Assembly (NCBI RefSeq): GCF_019654955.1
Contig: NZ_BPEV01000002.1
Span: 62,001-126,000 of the forward strand
From: Shewanella sp. KT0246
Lineage (GTDB): Bacteria; Pseudomonadota; Gammaproteobacteria; Enterobacterales; Shewanellaceae
DNA: 64,000 nt
Reading direction: 5' to 3'
The stretch's first letter is position 1. Each line of letters opens with the position of its first letter. A program made the translations under genes and the position numbers. This document shows, piece by piece, positions 1,497-10,355 of the stretch. Below the pieces are notes generated by a model. That model had not been told where the DNA came from. It saw only the letters and a list, made by a program, of their open reading frames with translations, and searched no databases.

Positions 1497-1943
1497 TTAG
1501 GTTAAATCGTTTTCAGTAAAGTTACTTTTAAACGTAAAAGCGTATGCCGAGTCACCATTTTCTCTTAAGTGTAATAACCTCTCTTTTGCTTCTTTAATAT
1601 CTGGGATATGTCCTTCTGCAACCCACCACAAAACATAGCTGTCTTCTGATAAGCGCTCAAACCACTCGTTTTTTCGGCGCATAAAGTCACGGTGATGGGT
1701 GCGAAACATAAAATTTTTTAAGGCTTCAACATTATCCCAAACTGACATATTTACAATCAGGCTTGGGGCATCAAATGCTTGGATTTGAGTGGCGTCGCCA
1801 GACTCATCTTTTAGGCGCCAAACAAAGCCAGCACTGATTTCAGCGATCCCGTTAACCTCATCCAGATTATCAACAAAGTCTTTCATTTCTGGAGTATCTA
1901 AGGCAAATTTACACTTTGCGATATTCAGTTGTGCCAGTTGCAT
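1497..1943 (-). CDS. DUF3291 domain protein
   Basis: The protein begins MQLAQLNIAKC and carries a ferredoxin-like/dimeric alpha-beta barrel pattern with 'NMSVWDNVEALKNFMF' and 'WWVAEGHIPDIKEAKERL', typical of DUF3291. I place the start at the ATG at 1943 and not the in-frame ATG at 1970, because a strong Shine-Dalgarno (AAGGAATAAG) lies directly before it, the family begins at this Met, and the upstream start would overlap the kinase. About 148 aa, soluble. It starts 8 bases after the histidine kinase stop, so it is probably co-transcribed with the two-component pair. Its biochemical function is unknown; related folds include heme- or small-molecule-binding monooxygenases. Confidence 0.8.
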   Translation of the reverse strand: MQLAQLNIAKCKFALDTPEMKDFVDNLDEVNGIAEISAGFVWRLKDESGDATQIQAFDAPSLIVNMSVWDNVEALKNFMFRTHHRDFMRRKNEWFERLSEDSYVLWWVAEGHIPDIKEAKERLLHLRENGDSAYAFTFKSNFTENDLT

Positions 1944-1951
1944 CTTATTCC

Positions 1952-3316
1952 TTATTCCTTCGGTAACCATAGCTTAACGCTAAGCCCGCCTTCCGTTCGG
2001 TTCTGCATGGTAATATGGCCACCATGAGCTTCAACAATTTCTCGACACAAAGGTAAACCAATGCCGGTGCCAGATTGTTTCGTCGAGTAAAACGGCAATA
2101 ATGCTTGGGATAATACTTCACTAGACATACCGCTGCCGTTATCTTCAACAGTAATAATAATCCCTTCTGCTGGATGTTTTATCTCTTGTATCAGTAAACT
2201 GACCTTATCTCTATCAGCACCTGACTCATGGGCATTTTTCAATAAATTAATTAATACTTGTTCAAGCTGAACACCATCTAATTCAATGGCCAATGTCGGT
2301 AACTTTGACAACAGATCAAAAGGATATTGAGCAGCTAATTGCTCAATAAAATTATCCCAATTTATTAATGCTTTGCGAGGTAAAGGCAGTTTGGCAAATT
2401 CGGCATAATGAGAAATAAATTGGCTTAAATGCGCGGTGCGATTTTCAATGGTATCGAATATCAACGCCAACTTATCGTTCTCTAGATTTTTGGTTAATAC
2501 TCTCCCTGAGTTAACCATAGAGGCGATTGGCGCCACTGAGTTGTTCAACTCATGGCTGATAATGCGAATGACCTTTTTCCATACAGCCACTTCTTGGCGG
2601 TTAAGTTCTTTAGTCAGTTGCTTGAGTAGAATTAAATGATGTTGCTGATTGTTCTGACTGAATTTCCCCCGCGAAATATGCCAGGTTTCAATATCGTCAT
2701 TATTGATATCATCATTATTACTATCGTCAGACGTCTCAGAAGCTGAGTCAGCATTAATTGAAAACAGCCCTTCATGCTCACTGTCTAAAGCTTGTCTGAG
2801 TGCACGAGGTAATTCTGCAATTAACTCCGCTAGCAACATGCCTTCAATTCGGACACCTTGGTTAAATAAATGCCTTGCAGCATCATTGGCATAAATAATT
2901 CGTTGCTGATCATCCACCAGCAACATGATGTTTGGCGAGTTTTGAATGACTTTATCTAACATCAACTCTCGCTGATAAATGAACTGTCGTTCATTACGTA
3001 GTTTTTCGGATGCTTGGTTATACAAGTCAGCAATTGAATCTAATTGTGGCTCACCATAGCCATGCAAAGACACACTAAATTCATTATCTTTAAAGTTGAG
3101 CAAGCCTACTTCTAATGCACTTAAACTGTCACTTAAAGTACTAGTCAGTCGCATACTGATTAAGAAACAAATACCTGCACTGACCACAATGGCGAGCCAT
3201 AATTGCTCTGGCCCAAATGAAAACCAAATACCCCAACCACATAGTCCGCTGACAGCAAGGCTTAACAGATTACCAAGCACTAACTTACTACGTAGTGGAA
3301 GCGTTTTTCTCATCAT
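1952..3316 (-). CDS. NtrY-like membrane sensor histidine kinase
   Basis: 454 aa. Two closely spaced transmembrane helices near residues 11-33 and 38-58 leave almost no periplasmic loop, so the signal is probably sensed in the membrane or cytoplasm. A PAS-like domain follows around 115-200 ('NSPNIMLLVDDQQRIIYAND') with an acidic Asp/Asn-rich insertion after it. The phospho-acceptor H box reads ISHELNNSVAPI, the Asn-rich form typical of NtrY kinases. The ATPase motifs NLLKNAHESG (N), DNGSGM (G1) and GTGIGLPL (G2) are all present. It lies 49 bp after the sigma54 response regulator gene and is almost certainly its partner. The input signal is unknown. Confidence 0.9.
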   Translation of the reverse strand: MMRKTLPLRSKLVLGNLLSLAVSGLCGWGIWFSFGPEQLWLAIVVSAGICFLISMRLTSTLSDSLSALEVGLLNFKDNEFSVSLHGYGEPQLDSIADLYNQASEKLRNERQFIYQRELMLDKVIQNSPNIMLLVDDQQRIIYANDAARHLFNQGVRIEGMLLAELIAELPRALRQALDSEHEGLFSINADSASETSDDSNNDDINNDDIETWHISRGKFSQNNQQHHLILLKQLTKELNRQEVAVWKKVIRIISHELNNSVAPIASMVNSGRVLTKNLENDKLALIFDTIENRTAHLSQFISHYAEFAKLPLPRKALINWDNFIEQLAAQYPFDLLSKLPTLAIELDGVQLEQVLINLLKNAHESGADRDKVSLLIQEIKHPAEGIIITVEDNGSGMSSEVLSQALLPFYSTKQSGTGIGLPLCREIVEAHGGHITMQNRTEGGLSVKLWLPKE

Positions 3317-3365
3317 TGATATTCACTTTTATCGGTGTTATTTGAGTCGACGTTTATTTAGCGTG

Positions 3366-4844
3366 CTATTTGCTCGAAATGCCATATTTATCCATACGGC
3401 GATACAATGCTTGGCGGCTTAAGCCTAACGACTTTGCCACTCTAGCAATGACCCCATTATGAGTCACTAATGCTTGCTCAATATCCTGTTTATCGGGCTC
3501 AACCATGGCAGCTCTGTTAGTTTCAGTAGCTTCGTTTTTAACTGCGCTTGCTGTACTTGAAGTCACTTTATTTGAAGTCACTTTATTTGAAGTCACTTTA
3601 TTTGAAGTCAAAGGCATCGCAGAATAGGGAGTAGGAGCTACTGTTCCCGCAGAATTCAGCCCTTGTTCTGCAGTCTGTAATAAGCCCAAATCTGTCATGG
3701 TCAAAACGGCATTCGTTGTTAATAACACTGCTCTTTTACAAACATTTTCAAGCTCGCGAACATTACCTGACCAAGCATGAGTCAGCAGCGCTTGTTGCGC
3801 AGGCTTATCAAAACTAAAGCCTTCGCCGACAAAGTGCTGCGCCAAAGGCAAAATGTCATCAACGCGTTGATTAAGTGGTGCTAATGGCAATTCAATGACG
3901 TTGAGACGGTAAAATAAATCCTCTCTAAAATGACCTTTGGCAATATCATCGGCTAAGTCCGCATTAGTCGCGCTTATTACTCGCACATTCACTTTACGGG
4001 TTTGATGACTCCCAAGTCGTTCAAACTCACCGGTTTGCAACACTCGCAGTAACTTTACTTGGCCAGATAATGGCAAGTTGCCAATTTCATCTAAAAATAA
4101 TGTGCCACCATCAGCAGCTTCAAAACGGCCTATGCGCACTTTATTTGCGCCAGTAAACGCGCCAGCCTCAGCGCCAAATAATTCGGCTTCCAGTAAGTCC
4201 ATTGGCAAGGCGCCAATATTCACTTTGATAAACGGTTTCTTGTTCAATAACGAGTTAGCTTGGACAATATCGGCAATTTTATCTTTGCCGGCACCATTAG
4301 GACCGGTGATCATGACTGATACATCAGACTTGGCGACTTGTAGGGCTAAATCAATACAGCGCTGCATCGCACCGCTTCCAAATACCATGCCACATAAATC
4401 GGCATCATTAATCGCACTCATGCGATCAGAGTCCATTCGGGTAAGCTGATTATTTTGCTTAGAAAGGTGATAAATAGATAGCAGGTTATTGATACTGGTG
4501 AGTAACTTAGCATCATCCCATGGTTTACCCATGTAATCAGCTGCGCCAGCTTTAACTAACTCAACTGCCGTTTCTAATTGGGTCCACGCCGTCATCAGAA
4601 TGATTGGTAAATTCGGCTGCTGCTGACGCAAGGTATAAAACAGTTGCTTGCCCTCTTCGCCTGATGTCGTATCGCGGGTGAAGTTCATATCTTGAATAAC
4701 AAGGCTAATATCGTGTTTTGAGACAATATCTAACGCTTGTTCAGGCGTTTCACAGCTCAATGCTCGATAACCATGGATATCTAGCATCAGCGTCAGTGCA
4801 CTACATATAGCATGGTTGTCATCAACCACTAAAATACTATCCAT
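3366..4844 (-). CDS. NtrC-family sigma54-dependent response regulator
   Basis: 492 aa with three domains. The receiver spans about 1-120, with acidic pair D8/D9, phospho-acceptor D52 and the Lys of GKPW near 107. The AAA+ sigma54-activation domain spans about 150-385, with a Walker A of GPNGAGKD near 181-188, the GAFTGA sigma54-contact loop, Walker B GGTLFLDEIG and an arginine-finger region REDLFYRLNV. A Fis-type HTH ends the protein (VAKSLGLSRQALYRRM). The linker before the HTH contains a five-residue repeat, NKVTS, in about three and a half copies, encoded by a 15-bp tandem DNA repeat. It is encoded just downstream of the ABC exporter genes and is the natural activator of the -24/-12 promoter at 10197-10214. 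Confidence 0.93.
   Translation of the reverse strand: MDSILVVDDNHAICSALTLMLDIHGYRALSCETPEQALDIVSKHDISLVIQDMNFTRDTTSGEEGKQLFYTLRQQQPNLPIILMTAWTQLETAVELVKAGAADYMGKPWDDAKLLTSINNLLSIYHLSKQNNQLTRMDSDRMSAINDADLCGMVFGSGAMQRCIDLALQVAKSDVSVMITGPNGAGKDKIADIVQANSLLNKKPFIKVNIGALPMDLLEAELFGAEAGAFTGANKVRIGRFEAADGGTLFLDEIGNLPLSGQVKLLRVLQTGEFERLGSHQTRKVNVRVISATNADLADDIAKGHFREDLFYRLNVIELPLAPLNQRVDDILPLAQHFVGEGFSFDKPAQQALLTHAWSGNVRELENVCKRAVLLTTNAVLTMTDLGLLQTAEQGLNSAGTVAPTPYSAMPLTSNKVTSNKVTSNKVTSSTASAVKNEATETNRAAMVEPDKQDIEQALVTHNGVIARVAKSLGLSRQALYRRMDKYGISSK
3557..3610 (-). repeat. 15-bp in-frame tandem repeat in response regulator linker
   Basis: The unit TTGAAGTCACTTTAT (plus-strand reading) occurs three times in full and once in part. 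On the coding strand each unit encodes Asn-Lys-Val-Thr-Ser. Because the unit is 15 bp, gain or loss of a copy changes linker length without shifting frame. The copies are identical, which suggests recent expansion by slippage. Confidence 0.9.
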
Positions 4845-4870
4845 GTGTATTATTTTTTCTCTCTTTATAT

Positions 4871-4924
4871 AGGGTTTATACCCTAGGTTTATGTATTAGG
4901 GTAATGTTATCTGGGTAACGTTAC
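4871..4924. promoter_or_regulatory. Inverted repeats upstream of the response regulator gene
   Basis: AGGGT-TTAT-ACCCT is a perfect inverted repeat at 4871-4884, followed at 4915-4924 by the palindrome GTAACGTTAC; GGGTAA also recurs between them. They lie 27-80 bp before the start codon of the response regulator, a position suitable for an operator or leader structure. No matching known operator is recognised, and the regulatory role is inference. Confidence 0.35.
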
Positions 4925-5057
4925 TGTAAAACGGCTAGATTTACGAGTTGCGATGATTATTTACAGTAATTTCAGTGGCAGATAATCTGTTAACTAACAC
5001 GACAGATAAAACCTAATTTAGCAATTAAATATATTACTATAAATTAAATACTTACCA

Positions 5058-5089
5058 ATGAAAGCCTGTAACTTGTAACATGCTTTCAT
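5058..5089. other. Imperfect hairpin between permease and response regulator genes
   Basis: Two 15-base arms beginning ATGAAAGC and ending GCTTTCAT face each other across a 2-base loop, with two mismatches. It lies about 40-70 bp downstream of the second permease stop on the minus strand. No clear U-tract follows on either strand, so it may be an RNA-processing or attenuation hairpin separating exporter from regulator expression and not a classical terminator. Confidence 0.4.
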
Positions 5090-5128
5090 CGGCTGATTTA
5101 TATCATATCGTGATTTTAAAACTGCTTG

Positions 5129-6337
5129 TTATACACTGCGTGTCGCCATTGCTGGTGATATTTTTGCGGCTTTCATCGCAGGCATAATCACAGCTAGGGT
5201 AGTCACCACTAACAAACCTACAATAGCAGCTATTGGATACGTTATTGGCAACATAGGTAGGCTATATAAGCTCATCAATTGTTGGCCTAATTGCAATGAC
5301 AGTAAGCCTCCAATCAGTCCACCAACGATACAAATGAGATAGTTTTCTACCATAAAGTAATGAACGATATCACGCTTCTTAGCACCCAACGCACGGCGAG
5401 TACCAATCTGTTTAGTGCGGCGTTGAATATTAAACATCACCATACCAGTCAGTCCTAATGCCGTTATTAATAGTAATAAAATTACCATCATGCTTAATAA
5501 TGTCGCCATTAAACGATGGTTGCTGTACGACTCTTTTTTCATATCAAGCAATGACGAGAATCCATCAATCACCCGATTTGGGTTTTCTGCATGGAACGCC
5601 TTTACAATCGCTTCTTCCAATGCCGGAATATGCTCAGGTAACGCGCGAACCATGTAGGTTTTATTTTTTAAACCACCACCAAAATCAATATTTTGAATCA
5701 CACTGTATTCAAAGTTTTCATGATTCACCCAAGCACCTTGAAGTTTTTCTATCACGCCAATAATTTCAATGGTTTGCTTGCCTTGATACATGGTTTTACC
5801 CACGGGTGACTCATCCCCCCAAAACGCTTTAGCTAAGGGTTGTGACACCATCGCCACCATGCCGCTTTGATCTAACTGGGTATTAATTTCTTCAGGGCGA
5901 AAGTTGCGCCCTTCTATTAACTTCGCGCCCATTACATTCAGTAAATGCTCATTGCCTAAATACAATGCAAAACCAGGCATGCTCTCAGCTATTTCTTCAT
6001 CTGCATTATCAACATAACGGTCCATCCAACCACTGCCGCTCAGTGGCATCATATTAGTTGAACTGGCATGAATCACGTTCGGTAAACCGCGCAGTATTTG
6101 TTGGTCAATGATATTTTGCTGAATGTTGTCGATCGCAGGGTCAAAATTATAAACATTAAAGCTCAATATCTGCTCTTCCATTAAGCCCGAACTTCGCTGC
6201 ATCATGGTTAAACGTTCATGAATAATAAAGCTCGCATTCGCCACTATGGCAACCGATAAAATAATCTGCAGTAGCAATAATATTGGGGCACTTTTGCTGC
6301 GCATTAAACTCGATAAAATAGGTTTGATATGTAACAT
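5129..6337 (-). CDS. MacB/FtsX-type ABC transporter permease (second permease)
   Basis: 402 aa. An N-terminal transmembrane helix (about 14-36) is followed by a large periplasmic MacB-core-like domain with the family's 'GRNF' and 'VSQPLAKAFWGDESPVGKT' segments, then three C-terminal helices of the FtsX fold ending in 'ISPAMATRSV'. The motif RRTKQIGTRRALGAKKRDI is the cytoplasmic coupling segment of FtsX-type permeases. Such proteins act as mechanotransmission permeases that drive efflux or lipoprotein/peptide release across the envelope. The gene follows the other permease after 22 bp; two different permeases imply a heterodimer. The substrate is not evident. Confidence 0.88.
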   Translation of the reverse strand: MLHIKPILSSLMRSKSAPILLLLQIILSVAIVANASFIIHERLTMMQRSSGLMEEQILSFNVYNFDPAIDNIQQNIIDQQILRGLPNVIHASSTNMMPLSGSGWMDRYVDNADEEIAESMPGFALYLGNEHLLNVMGAKLIEGRNFRPEEINTQLDQSGMVAMVSQPLAKAFWGDESPVGKTMYQGKQTIEIIGVIEKLQGAWVNHENFEYSVIQNIDFGGGLKNKTYMVRALPEHIPALEEAIVKAFHAENPNRVIDGFSSLLDMKKESYSNHRLMATLLSMMVILLLLITALGLTGMVMFNIQRRTKQIGTRRALGAKKRDIVHYFMVENYLICIVGGLIGGLLSLQLGQQLMSLYSLPMLPITYPIAAIVGLLVVTTLAVIMPAMKAAKISPAMATRSV

Positions 6338-6359
6338 GTCGAATTCCTTTCTTTAGTCG

Positions 6360-7673
6360 TTATTGCGCTTTTAAATACACACTGGGTTTAGTGCGGCACA
6401 CGACCCAAGCAGGATAAATACCCGCAATAATAGCCGTCGAAATAGCAATTAAAGGCGTAATAAACCACATACTTGCATCAAGTCCAGTCACGCTTTGCTT
6501 CATACTAAACTCTGCATGCAGTATCGATAGCGCTCCCCAAGCCCACAGTAGTCCAACAATGCCTCCAATAAAGCCGATAATCCCAACTTCGACCATGTAT
6601 TGGCTGAATATTTGTGCACGACTTGCGCCAATGGCGCGGCGAACCCCAACTTCTGGAGCACGTTTTAAGAACTTAGTCAGCAGTAAACCGAGAATATTCA
6701 CCAAACATACACTCAAGAACAGCACACTGAGGCCAACTAAAATTTTGTTATCTCTTGGCACCACATCGTTATTTTCAAGCCATAGCGCAACATCGCTAAT
6801 TTGAGCTGATTCTTGTGGTGACTTAGCTGTATCGGTGTAGCGCCCAAAACTTCTTTGCTCTTCTACATAACGCCCTAGCCAGCTCTGTAATTGTGATTTC
6901 TGCTCTGGGGTTTCAAGGAAAGTCCAAAACTGAATCCAGGTCTTTTCCGAATTTAAGCGATCTTGATGTGTCAGCATCGGCTCAAACTTCCAGCCACTGG
7001 TGTTGCCCCATACATCAAACTCTTCTTGCTCAGTCAGCGAAAAAGGAATAAAAATCTCTTCTGCATCATTGAATGCGCCATTAAGCGGGTCGTAATATTT
7101 AGGCTGCGGATTCCAATCTTTGATCACACCCACCACCTGATAAGGCTTGCGGTTGAGGTAAATAGTTTTACCCACACTATTTTGACCGTCAAAAAAAGTT
7201 TGATTAAGCTTCTCACCAATCACCACCTGATATGCGGGGTGGCTATCAACGCTTTTCCCCCAGCGATCACCATATAAAAATGGCACTTCAAAAATGGTGA
7301 AAAAATCTCTATCTGTGACACGTACGCTTTCTAAAACAGGTTCGATATCCTGATTATCAGATTGCATTGCAAGCCCTGTACGATATGAGGCTGCTTTCAC
7401 CGACAGTTCATTGTTATTACGAAGATTCACCACATCCTTGTAGGTAATATTTGACTGGTATTCATCCCAAGTATCTAACCCTTGGCTCCACAACTGGATT
7501 GAATTGATCTGATCACTTCGCTCCTCAGCGGGGTTATAAGACATGGTTTTATAGACATTCAAAGTGGTAATCGTAATGCCGATACCAATTGAAATCGCTA
7601 ATACCATAAGCATGGATAACATGGGGGTTTTCTTGATGCTGCGCCAAGCAAGATCGCAATAATATAAAAACAT
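6360..7673 (-). CDS. MacB/FtsX-type ABC transporter permease (first permease)
   Basis: 437 aa, same architecture as its neighbour: one N-terminal helix (about 18-38), a periplasmic domain of about 250 residues, then three helices. The coupling motif reads RAPEVGVRRAIGASRAQIF. 'GEKLNQTFFDGQNSVGKTIYLNRKPYQVVGVIKD' is the MacB periplasmic-core signature region. Gene order ATPase-permease-permease with 20-22 bp gaps shows one operon. Together with the HlyD-like adaptor it should form a MacAB-like exporter that needs an outer-membrane channel supplied from elsewhere. Confidence 0.88.
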   Translation of the reverse strand: MFLYYCDLAWRSIKKTPMLSMLMVLAISIGIGITITTLNVYKTMSYNPAEERSDQINSIQLWSQGLDTWDEYQSNITYKDVVNLRNNNELSVKAASYRTGLAMQSDNQDIEPVLESVRVTDRDFFTIFEVPFLYGDRWGKSVDSHPAYQVVIGEKLNQTFFDGQNSVGKTIYLNRKPYQVVGVIKDWNPQPKYYDPLNGAFNDAEEIFIPFSLTEQEEFDVWGNTSGWKFEPMLTHQDRLNSEKTWIQFWTFLETPEQKSQLQSWLGRYVEEQRSFGRYTDTAKSPQESAQISDVALWLENNDVVPRDNKILVGLSVLFLSVCLVNILGLLLTKFLKRAPEVGVRRAIGASRAQIFSQYMVEVGIIGFIGGIVGLLWAWGALSILHAEFSMKQSVTGLDASMWFITPLIAISTAIIAGIYPAWVVCRTKPSVYLKAQ

Positions 7674-7693
7674 AAGCTTATCTCCTACTTGTG

Positions 7694-8461
7694 TTATCCG
7701 TTGCTGCTGGCAACTTTTTGCAAATCAGCCACTTGTTGTAAGTCGGTGGCTTGTTTTAAATCAGATACAAGCGTTTGGTCTGCTTTTTGATACATCGAGA
7801 AGTCACACACTTGACCATCGACAATTTGAATATTGCGTTGAGCACGACGCGCAAGTTCAGCATCATGGGTTACCATGATGATGGTGGTTCCCGTTTGGTT
7901 AATATTCTCTAATAACTCCATGACTTGGCGCGCCATTAGGCTGTCTAAATTACCCGTTGGCTCATCGGCTAATAAAAATCGCGGCTCACCCGCTAAAGCT
8001 CTAGCAATCGCAACGCGCTGCTGTTGACCACCTGATAATTGTGACGGTAAATGCTTCATCCTTGCAGCTAAACCGACTTGCTCTAATGCTGACTCCACAC
8101 GGCGATTACGCTCTGCCCGATTAAAACCGCGATAACGTAATGGCACTTCAACATTCTCAGCGAGGTTTAAATCAGGAATAAGATTAAACCCTTGAAAGAT
8201 GAAGCCGATTTTTTCATTTCTAACTTTCGCGCTATGATTATCACTAAGGTTTGAAACGTTGACGCCATCAAGACTAAACTCGCCTGAAGTAAATCCTTCA
8301 AGTAAACCAGCAATGTTCAAAAAGGTCGTTTTACCTGAACCAGATGGCCCTGTAACTGCCACAAACTCGCCCTCTTCAACTTCAAGATTAAAATCACGTA
8401 GCGCATGAGTTTCTACTAAGTCCGTTTTAAATACTTTGCTAATATTCTTCATTGATAACAT
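7694..8461 (-). CDS. MacB/LolD-like ABC transporter ATP-binding protein
   Basis: 255 aa cytoplasmic nucleotide-binding subunit. Walker A is GPSGSGKTTF, the signature is LSGGQQQRVAIARAL, Walker B is FLLADEPTGNLD and the H-loop is VTHD. 'VEVPLRYRGFNRAERNRRV' is typical of the LolD/MacB subgroup. The last 25 residues are an unusual low-complexity tail with repeated DLKQ/DLQQ/DLQK units. It lies between the small membrane protein gene and the two permeases and energises the exporter. Confidence 0.93.
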   Translation of the reverse strand: MLSMKNISKVFKTDLVETHALRDFNLEVEEGEFVAVTGPSGSGKTTFLNIAGLLEGFTSGEFSLDGVNVSNLSDNHSAKVRNEKIGFIFQGFNLIPDLNLAENVEVPLRYRGFNRAERNRRVESALEQVGLAARMKHLPSQLSGGQQQRVAIARALAGEPRFLLADEPTGNLDSLMARQVMELLENINQTGTTIIMVTHDAELARRAQRNIQIVDGQVCDFSMYQKADQTLVSDLKQATDLQQVADLQKVASSNG

Positions 8462-8533
8462 GAGTCTGTCCTTGTCTTATTGGCTCTGTGTTTTGCCAAT
8501 TTTTGTTTATTCAATTAATCGGTGAATTCGCGC

Positions 8534-8767
8534 TTAAAAATGCACTATGATTTGCAGTGCAGTGGCAAAATCTAATTCAAATAACACCTGCACCATATCG
8601 CTGCTTAATCCATAACTAACCTGATCTGCGAGTTGATCTGTTAGGTCAATAATTTGAAAGCTAAATGACAACCAGTTAAAGCTTTCATCAATTCTGTAAC
8701 TCACCGCTAGGCTCAATAGCATCAACGCAACAAAGCCTGCCATCGGTTTGGTTTGAGATGATTTCAT
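8534..8767 (-). CDS. Small membrane protein in exporter operon, 77 aa, unknown
   Basis: The protein starts MKSSQTKPMAG, followed by one hydrophobic stretch (about 11-24), then an acidic amphipathic half ending LQIIVHF. A good Shine-Dalgarno (AAGGAC, 6 bases before the ATG) supports translation. It lies 45 bp after the adaptor stop and 72 bp before the ATPase start, all in one direction, so it belongs to the operon. It has no cysteine and no obvious leader-peptide cleavage motif, so a bacteriocin identity is not supported. It could be an accessory subunit or small regulator of the exporter. I do not recognise a family. Confidence 0.6.
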   Translation of the reverse strand: MKSSQTKPMAGFVALMLLSLAVSYRIDESFNWLSFSFQIIDLTDQLADQVSYGLSSDMVQVLFELDFATALQIIVHF

Positions 8768-8812
8768 TTTTGTGTCCTTACTTATTGTCGCAATCCAATC
8801 GGTTTAATTTGT

Positions 8813-10072
8813 TTATCTAATTTGAATTTGTTCATCGTTTTTAAACGCTTCAGTGCCTGAAACCACCCACACATCACCCTCCTTACCTCCATCAACGACT
8901 TCGACTTGACTCATACTCCTTGCGCCGAGTGTCACTGGAGTTTTAACAGCTATATCATCGTTCATAACAAATGCTGTTGAACCGCCGCGATTTAAAAAGT
9001 CACCGCGTTTTACCATTAATACATTAGGGCGATTTTCGAGTAATACTCGCGCTGATAAACGCTGATTTTGACGAAGCGATAAACTGGTTTCAGCGTTAAA
9101 ACGCACTCGAGCTGTCACTTCACGGTTTCTTACTTCTGGTGAAATAGAAGATAAATGCCCCATCACTTTAAGACTGCCAAAACTTAACTCAACATCCATG
9201 CCTATGCCTAAGTCATCGGCATAAGATTCAGGCACTGCAAGCTCAGCTTCAAAGGCGCTCAAATCCACGACGGTAAGTATTGGCTGACTTGCGCCGATAC
9301 GGGCTTTTTGTTCAACCAACCAATTACCAATAATCCCTTTTACCGGCGCCTTAATATCTAGCGCAGCAATCTGACGAGCTAACTCGGTCACCACCAATGC
9401 TTGTCTGTCGACTTCTAGGGCACGGTTTTTAAGTTCAAACGTTAAGGTATCGCGCATCAATTCCACTTCTTGAATGGCATGTTTGTGCAACAACTTAGCT
9501 TTGTGTAAATCGTCTTTACTTTTTTCATAATCGATGCGGCTAATGAGACTATTTTGAATCAATTGATCGCCACGGCGACTTTCTCTATCGGCAGCTTCTA
9601 AATCGACCTTGGCCATATCCAGTACTTGGCTCACTCGTAACTGTTCGCGACGGGCATCTAACTTGGCGCGCTCCAAATCACTTTCCATTGCGGCAAATAC
9701 TGACTGCTCTTGTTGAAAGCTACTGCGTAATTTAGGGCTGTCGATTTGTGCAACGACTTGATCTTGTTCGACCTCATCACCTGGCTGGCTAAGTAACGTC
9801 ACCACACCTTGTTCAGTGCTGTATAAAATGGGAGCATTGGCTGCCACAATTTTACCTGTTGTCGCGATATCACGTACTAAAGTACCTCGAGTGATTGTGG
9901 CTAAACGTAGGTCTTTACCTTCGATGGAGCGAATAGAAGAGTCATGACCAATGCTTGCCCACACTAGCGCACTCATTAACACACAGATTGTGCCAATAAT
10001 GATGGGCATACGTAGCTTTTGAGAAGCGCCTGCTTTAATGACCGTATCTTGTCCGCTGGTATCTTTAATCAT
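8813..10072 (-). CDS. HlyD/MacA-like periplasmic adaptor protein
   Basis: 419 aa. One transmembrane anchor (about 23-44) is followed by the biotinyl-lipoyl half-motif 'GDEVEQDQVVAQIDSPKL', a long alpha-helical hairpin (about 120-235, rich in Glu, Arg, Lys and Gln), the returning lipoyl strand 'APVKGIIGNWLVEQKARI' and beta-barrel domains. This is the membrane fusion protein layout that links an inner-membrane pump to an outer-membrane channel. It is the first gene of the leftward block. The start is supported by GGAACCGAG just before the ATG, and about 115 nt upstream lies a sigma54-type promoter. Confidence 0.92.
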   Translation of the reverse strand: MIKDTSGQDTVIKAGASQKLRMPIIIGTICVLMSALVWASIGHDSSIRSIEGKDLRLATITRGTLVRDIATTGKIVAANAPILYSTEQGVVTLLSQPGDEVEQDQVVAQIDSPKLRSSFQQEQSVFAAMESDLERAKLDARREQLRVSQVLDMAKVDLEAADRESRRGDQLIQNSLISRIDYEKSKDDLHKAKLLHKHAIQEVELMRDTLTFELKNRALEVDRQALVVTELARQIAALDIKAPVKGIIGNWLVEQKARIGASQPILTVVDLSAFEAELAVPESYADDLGIGMDVELSFGSLKVMGHLSSISPEVRNREVTARVRFNAETSLSLRQNQRLSARVLLENRPNVLMVKRGDFLNRGGSTAFVMNDDIAVKTPVTLGARSMSQVEVVDGGKEGDVWVVSGTEAFKNDEQIQIR

Positions 10073-10196
10073 CTCGGTTCCTTGACTCTCACTAGGGGCT
10101 TTCTGTTTGCTGGCAGTCCGTTTACAAGCTATCCGCTTACAAATAGTGACCGTTCTAGAAAACCTAGTGTGCTATTTCGATATTGTTCCCGTGATA

Positions 10197-10214
10197 AAGC
10201 ACAGGCTATGCCAA
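10197..10214 (-). promoter_or_regulatory. Sigma54 (-24/-12) promoter for the exporter operon
   Basis: On the minus strand the sequence TTGGCATAGCCTGTGCTT has GG and GC separated by exactly 10 bases, and TTGGCA and TGCTT match the RpoN consensus halves. Transcription would start near 10187, giving a leader of about 115 nt before the HlyD-like gene. The same block encodes an NtrC-family activator with GAFTGA. Seen directly: sequence and spacing. Inferred: promoter activity and control by that regulator. Confidence 0.72.
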
Positions 10215-10276
10215 TAATAACAAAACTTTAAATATCATAAGGATAGGTGCAATTGCATTTATTAGAATATACGAAT

Positions 10277-10355
10277 GTGTCCGCGGACACTGATTTAAAG
10301 TGTCCGTAAAAAAGAAAAGTGTCCGAACAATAAAAAAGTGTCCGAGTGGACACTT
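10277..10355. promoter_or_regulatory. GTGTCC element array, probable enhancer for the NtrC-type regulator
   Basis: Four GTGTCC elements begin at 10277, 10300, 10319 and 10338. The first is part of the perfect palindrome GTGTCCGCGGACAC; the last is part of AAGTGTCC-GAGT-GGACACTT; the middle two are half-sites AGTGTCCG. Spacing between elements is 23, 19 and 19 bp, close to two helical turns. The array is about 65-145 bp upstream of the -24 box at 10211, the usual place for sigma54 enhancer sites. Confidence 0.72.

Follow-up and report, generated by a model that had tools for sequence, protein, structure and literature searches.

What kind of exporter is encoded together with its own response regulator and histidine kinase, and how would such an operon be switched on? 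To address this question, we present here a computational analysis of positions 1,952 to 10,355 of a 64,000-nucleotide stretch of Shewanella sp. KT0246 (assembly GCF_019654955.1, contig NZ_BPEV01000002.1, positions 62,001 to 126,000 of the forward strand; the whole stretch is called the window below). The locus is best explained, and with good probability, as a self-contained, positively autoregulated, sigma54-dependent export module, in which the exporter probably controls its own production. Comparison with related loci supports the gene module, its putative operator, a sigma54-type promoter box, their spacing, and their co-inheritance. From these we infer that the regulator binds this operator, that transcription depends on RpoN and is activated rather than repressed, and that the regulator pair is co-transcribed.

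The original prediction, made from the letters of the DNA, listed an HlyD adaptor, a 77-amino-acid peptide, an ATPase, two FtsX permeases, a GAFTGA-bearing regulator, and a kinase. All were found, on the minus strand, in the following order of transcription:

8813..10072, minus strand: HlyD/MFP periplasmic adaptor, 419 amino acids, with Pfam HlyD_3 and HlyD_D23 and with TIGR01730 above its cut-off
8534..8767, minus strand: small protein, 77 amino acids, with a single hydrophobic stretch near its N terminus and without a Pfam or NCBIfam match
7694..8461, minus strand: ATP-binding cassette (ABC) ATPase, 255 amino acids, of the LolD/MacB/DarD kind by Pfam and NCBIfam matches
6360..7673, minus strand: half-permease A, MacB_PCD plus FtsX, aligning to the N-terminal half of the ADOP model
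5129..6337, minus strand: half-permease B, MacB_PCD plus FtsX, aligning to the C-terminal half of the ADOP model
3366..4844, minus strand: NtrC-family response regulator with a receiver domain (Asp in VIQDMNF), an AAA+ domain with GAFTGA, and a Fis-type helix-turn-helix
1952..3316, minus strand: histidine kinase with two close hydrophobic segments (by hydropathy only), a PAS domain, a SHELNN H-box, and a HATPase domain

Upstream of the adaptor gene lie the candidate control elements:

10338..10353, minus strand: putative distal operator palindrome GTGTCC-N4-GGACAC (GTGTCC-ACTC-GGACAC), by sequence match
10319..10324, minus strand: putative single half-site GGACAC, by sequence match
10300..10305, minus strand: putative single half-site GGACAC, by sequence match
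10277..10290, minus strand: putative proximal operator palindrome GTGTCCGCGGACAC (GTGTCC-GC-GGACAC), by sequence match
10197..10214, minus strand: sigma54-type -24/-12 element TTGGCATAGCCTGTGCTT, by sequence match, with GG at 10212-10211 and GC at 10200-10199
10187, minus strand: predicted transcription start, placed from the position of the -12 element, with a leader of about 115 nt

Both upstream features that had been claimed are present. The -24/-12 element has its GG and GC 10 bases apart on the minus strand, and the array of four GTGTCC elements, two of them palindromic and said to lie 19 to 23 bp apart, amounts to six half-sites with spacings of 19, 19, and 23 bp in the GGACAC register. 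The GTGTCC hexamer is not over-represented across the window (14 found, 13.35 expected); 6 of the 14 fall inside 77 bp, where by our own arithmetic about 0.016 would be expected. The 300 bp upstream of the window's adaptor gene contain 6 TGTCC/GGACA half-sites, against 0.48 expected in shuffles.

Conservation of the operator and of the -24/-12 box in orthologous operons had been set beforehand as the test that could refute the prediction; it was run, and both are kept in relatives, which include several marine bacteria. A scan of genome contigs gave 77 loci, numbered L036 to L112, of which L111 and L112 (partial or weak matches) were excluded, leaving 75 fetched loci (L036 to L110) for comparison of gene order. 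The order HlyD-ATPase-permease-permease-regulator-kinase is found in 74 of them. The exception, L108 of Pseudoalteromonas byunsanensis, has an adaptor relative at 28% identity and, on the strand opposite to it, ATPase-like and permease-like matches; the module is absent there, and a search for TGTCC/GGACA in the 300 bp upstream of that adaptor found none. The upstream regions were compared in the 74 order-keeping loci plus the window, again 75 loci, to which the promoter, kinase, and small-protein counts below also refer. These average 4.87 TGTCC/GGACA half-sites per 300 bp upstream, against 0.37 in dinucleotide shuffles, and a TGTCC-N2..7-GGACA palindrome precedes the adaptor in 73 of them (0.04 expected in shuffles), L071 and L105 having no exact palindrome.

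A TGG[CT][AT] box stands near the expected distance in all 75 loci, each with G at -13, a base that the choice of boxes had favoured. The longer TTGG[CT][AT] occurs at the phased distance in 57 of the 75, against a mean of 2.7 and a maximum of 6 in shuffled DNA downstream of the palindrome. From the centre of the promoter-nearest palindrome to the -24 GG, the distance could be measured in 73 loci (L071 and L105 were left out for want of an exact palindrome) and is 59-63 bp in 38 and 70-73 bp in 31, so that 69 of the 73 fall into two classes one helical turn apart. None lies at 64-69 bp; the remainder are 81.5 bp in three loci (L083, L084, and L087, whose proximal palindrome is imperfect and whose distance was taken from the distal one) and 86 bp in one. 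On a maximum-likelihood adaptor tree, in which the placement of L103 and L104 is unsure, the spacing class must have changed at least four times, given the supported branches. Judged by sequence, the locus thus has the putative upstream activator sites at conserved phase that are expected of a sigma54-dependent operon.

Operator and module also travel together. Of 146 family genomes, 122 have an adaptor orthologue (E <= 1e-39), and exactly these 122 also have a regulator orthologue (E <= 1e-95). The exact core TGTCCGCGGACA occurs somewhere in 97 of the 122 module-bearing genomes and in 1 of the 24 module-free genomes; it has 109 sites in all 146, against 36 for a reversed control (both our own sums). 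Among the matches listed, which cover 75 of the 109 sites, 60 stand upstream of the adaptor gene, at 114-422 bp, and the other 15 are located elsewhere. In the 4.85-Mb KT0246 genome, GTGTCC-N2..5-GGACAC has two exact sites, both at this promoter; of 60 relatives, 26 genomes hold the exact pattern, at 35 distinct places, of which 30 are at the adaptor gene (28 assigned by coordinates, 2 by tblastn) and 5 elsewhere, while the reversed control gave 66 occurrences by our own sum, 35 of them from a single genome. With most exact sites at the adaptor promoter, the operator is concentrated there, though the 12-mer alone also occurs by chance. A wider regulon in the KT0246 genome was considered and rejected, on a search restricted to the fixed-gap palindrome GTGTCC-N2-GGACAC: with up to two mismatches it matched 34 places and the reversed control 68, and the only exact copy among the 34 is the one at this promoter.

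The module extends beyond the closest relatives. The adaptor genes most similar to that of the window, among those with an organism name, are from Shewanella (up to 95% identity), and the fetched loci that carry the module belong to Shewanella, Parashewanella, Paraferrimonas, Pseudoalteromonas, and Thalassotalea, as well as to two Alteromonadaceae, Chiayiivirga, and one unassigned proteobacterial bin; among the Shewanella with the module are S. frigidimarina (L052) and Shewanella sp. ANA-3 (L076). The regulator was found at E <= 1e-90 in 5 of 274 sampled gammaproteobacterial genomes, KT0246 included. Further loci chosen by their regulator (L154, L156, and L157) have the full gene set with TGTCC/GGACA elements and a TTGGCA box upstream, the elements of L156 and L157 not being arranged as a standard palindrome. 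L158 and L159 also have the full gene set; they were chosen by the operator pattern, so their operators give no independent support. In L155 the regulator pair and permeases are present, no adaptor or ATPase was matched within the stretch taken, and permease-like frames recur in the interval from the regulator pair to the permeases that match best.

The regulator and kinase had been labelled an NtrC/NtrY pair. That holds to the extent that an NtrC-family regulator and a kinase are present; the regulator scores below the equivalog cut-off for NtrC proper (TIGR01818, 340.1 of 558.6 bits) and is not NtrX proper either (281.7 of 600 bits), and the kinase, whose domains are PAS and HATPase, matches AtoS best in NCBIfam, with only 113.7 bits where the cut-off is 646. 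Motifs of phosphotransfer and sigma54 activation are well kept among 17 representatives: the H-box SHE[LI]NN in all, GA[FY]TGA in 16 (L101 has GAYTGL), and the receiver motif DMNF with its Asp in 16, the exception being L053. In L053 the regulator frame is short (291 amino acids), through decay or an assembly error; the regulator at G102:C35 and the adaptor at G144:C1 are each split in two pieces, again by decay or assembly errors. The linker between the AAA+ and helix-turn-helix domains of the window's regulator (about 3465-3705, minus strand) contains a repeated TSNKV stretch, and the distance from VRELEN to RQALYRR varies from 64 to 131 residues among relatives.

Hydropathy of 18 kinases shows two N-terminal hydrophobic segments, mostly few residues apart. 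In 62 of 75 kinases at most 98 residues precede the motif that follows the second segment; judged by where the H-box stands, those of L063 and L064 are short as well, and the length in L105 could not be assigned. The N terminus is longer in ten (L053, L055, L057, L058, L060, L062, L066, L067, L076, and L106) and may there include a periplasmic domain; sensor input may thus have changed within Shewanella.

A start of transcription between half-permease B and the regulator gene was also considered. A sigma70-type promoter was sought at 4700-5300, before the regulator gene, with no match, and a separate operator was rejected, since the 75 gaps between permease B and regulator (10,470 bases) hold 8 half-sites where a crude equal-base estimate gives about 20. 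An inverted repeat, TAGGGTTTATACCCTA, lies at 4870-4885, about 25 bp upstream of the regulator gene.

Several observations weigh against sigma54-dependent autoregulation through this operator, or limit how far it can be extended. The -12 GC is complete in 45 of the 75 loci and incomplete in 30, and the promoter box scored alone reaches the top 5% of shuffles in only 58, the 17 others being 16 Pseudoalteromonas loci and L063. The loci are kin, so that the tests are not independent and the shuffle counts overstate significance. No exact TGTCCGCGGACA is present in 25 of the 122 module genomes, and in four genomes (G004, G013, G018, and G025) the sole site lies away from the adaptor. The reversed control, for its part, is not rare: it occurs once in the KT0246 genome against twice for the gapped operator pattern, and its 36 occurrences in the family compare with the 109 of the exact 12-mer. 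Finally, the ten kinases with a longer N terminus mean that membrane-only sensing is not universal.

Some of these points would suit a different arrangement, in which another regulator binds the operator and the resemblance to a -24/-12 box is secondary. The incomplete -12 elements are in keeping with it, and the assignment of the partner regulator rests on neighbourhood and co-occurrence only. We nevertheless judge it very unlikely, because 23 of the 24 genomes that lack the regulator also lack the exact operator core, the distances from operator to box fall into two classes one helical turn apart, and most exact sites are located at this promoter. Taken together, sequence comparison bears out the original prediction in that the module comes with a regulator pair of its own and that operator and sigma54-type box are kept in relatives; the activation it proposed stays at the level of inference given at the outset, and the proposed sensing of envelope or peptide stress by the kinase at that of conjecture.

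With the regulator of the operon as the likely activator, we turn to what it would switch on. The half-permeases align to consecutive parts of the ADOP model TIGR03434, A to positions 7-401 and B to 412-801; they score 152.9 and 184.4 bits, and the model's cut-off is 622.3. ADOP is a duplicated permease; here two genes align to the two halves of its model, and the pair accordingly looks like a split ADOP permease. With a MacB_PCD plus FtsX permease and an HlyD/MFP adaptor, the operon has the composition of a MacAB-type tripartite system. No outer-membrane channel gene was found inside the operon; elsewhere the KT0246 genome has 23 OEP domain matches, and one RpoN match. MacAB-TolC shares the MacB_PCD, FtsX, and HlyD-type components, and here the outer-membrane channel is presumably encoded elsewhere.

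An ordinary MacAB-like drug pump with an incidental two-component pair would account for these domains, since MacB_PCD/FtsX, ATPase, and HlyD are all of the MacAB superfamily. It is nonetheless an improbable description of this locus: unlike in MacAB-TolC, where MacB is fused, there are separate genes here for the ATPase and for each of two different half-permeases, and their products fall far below the cut-off of the equivalog for the fused MacB ATPase-permease (NF007826; 60.7, 61, and 223.7 bits against 966), which is rejected as their identity. Sigma54-type two-component control and an added small protein are, to our knowledge, not part of MacAB. In strain MR-1, SO0820-0823 are the true MacAB with MacC.

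A second resemblance, to the darobactin exporter DarBCD, bears on the cargo. The best NCBIfam match of the ATPase is DarD (271.6 bits, cut-off 375) and the second best of the adaptor is DarC (79.7 of 450); with DarB at 26.8 of 700, all three are below cut-off, and a darobactin exporter proper is rejected. The operon here further differs in having its own sigma54-type regulator pair. Darobactin we take to be a self-made peptide, and the likeness, together with the small protein gene in the operon, raises the alternative that the exporter releases an endogenous product (a signal peptide, a lipid, or similar) and that the kinase senses this product or cell density. As cargo, an endogenous product is a real alternative, though as an account of the locus we consider it unlikely. 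Neither of two flanking genes tested is common to most loci: 22 of 75 fetched loci have a BtuF-like gene, in 2 of 75 (L036 and L040) a DUF3291 gene follows the kinase, and neither is counted as a module member. In the window the DUF3291 gene (1497-1970, minus strand) is on the same strand as the kinase gene and overlaps its end by 19 bp. Outside the Shewanella group, moreover, all 30 loci lack the 77-amino-acid gene and retain the rest of the module.

That gene is real, fast-evolving, and, among the loci examined, limited to the Shewanella group, as the pattern of its frames and substitutions indicates. The group comprises 45 loci (the window, L036-L076, L102, L106, and L109), and a small hydrophobic frame lies in the adaptor-ATPase gap of 44, five of the frames being detected only by stop-to-stop reading; none was seen in L074, and those of L061, L072, and L075 are among the very divergent ones. 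In the other 30 loci the gap is at most 47 bp in 29, while L093 has 267 bp with an unrelated frame. Plain tblastn with the window's protein finds 17 of the 75 loci. Within clades, the pooled proportions of synonymous (pS) and nonsynonymous (pN) differences are 0.40 and 0.08 for ten loci and 0.38 and 0.09 for five, and between clades a pattern of approximately ALxLLxxAV...WFxxGLxxxE is kept. Searching with a profile built from such sequences returned 31 proteins, none with a Pfam domain, the named ones among them being hypothetical proteins of Shewanella or Paraferrimonas.

The preferred explanation, an autoregulated sigma54-dependent exporter, would work as follows. The kinase would phosphorylate its partner regulator, which would bind the TGTCCGCGGACA palindrome and the neighbouring GGACAC half-sites and activate sigma54-RNA polymerase at the -24/-12 box, which lies roughly 60 or 71 bp further downstream. 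Expression of the whole operon would then rise, regulator and kinase included, and the products would assemble as a tripartite exporter of type VII (the MacB/LolCDE superfamily), in which a split-ADOP-like permease heterodimer would join one ATPase and an HlyD adaptor docking to a TolC-type channel encoded elsewhere. Its most likely function, by conjecture, would be to clear the envelope of a toxic compound that is amphipathic or a peptide. The kinase, mostly without room for a periplasmic domain, would sense the membrane or the exporter itself; exporter-coupled sensing as the signal, with the small protein as a coupling subunit, is likewise conjectural.

Such sensing has a precedent in the Bce modules, where a kinase that has no sensor domain acts together with its ABC transporter (PMC7828314, in part). 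BceAB-BceRS of Firmicutes resembles the present module in joining an ABC transporter to a dedicated two-component pair; its kinase has no extracellular sensor domain, as described in the same part of that source, a trait that most kinases compared here may share. The present module differs in its sigma54 activator, HlyD adaptor, split MacB-type permease, and Gram-negative hosts. We tentatively raise the possibility, without favouring it, that the module is a Gram-negative, sigma54-powered counterpart of Bce, in which the kinase has no periplasmic sensor and reads the working state of its own MacB-type exporter, so that transport flux drives expression, the small protein serving in Shewanella as a coupling or specificity subunit that links the exporter to the kinase or to the substrate. 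On the regulatory side, the Vfm system of Dickeya (VfmI/VfmH) also pairs a Fis-type regulator of receiver and AAA+ domains with a kinase; going by the description in part of PMC10714721, VfmH carries GAFTDA and did not pull down sigma54, whereas the regulator here has GAFTGA.

Is the system a known one? According to passages of a 2025 survey (PMC12316311), sigma54 promoters are enriched at COG0577 permeases in Gammaproteobacteria, Opitutia, and Bacteroidia, a result presented there as the earliest evidence that connects sigma54 with these transporters; no module, activator, operator, or small protein is mentioned in these passages. The earlier remark that no named system was recognised with this exact composition and operator has to be qualified, in that the link between sigma54 and the permeases had already been reported. 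Parts of other sources tie sigma54 to the cell exterior in general (PMC3162934) or deal with other regulators of the sigma54 family (PMC4641369 and PMC10714721); a word search of the text of PMC3162934 returned no mention of ABC, HlyD, MacB, permease, exporter, or Shewanella. In a literature search judged from titles and the beginnings of abstracts, with most subscription papers outside its scope, no paper on the module, operator, or small protein was recognised. The kind of system is thus known in outline, and the defined module, its operator, and its small protein were not found in the literature searched.

For the Shewanella family, in which 122 of 146 sampled genomes have it, this is a widespread module, and it offers a family of small membrane proteins that goes with an exporter. 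It also provides a concrete candidate activator-operator pair for the statistical link between sigma54 and permeases in the surveyed passages (PMC12316311). With operator, promoter geometry, and wiring all readable from the DNA, the module may serve as a clean system for the study of phased sigma54 activator sites and of exporter sensing in Gram-negative bacteria.

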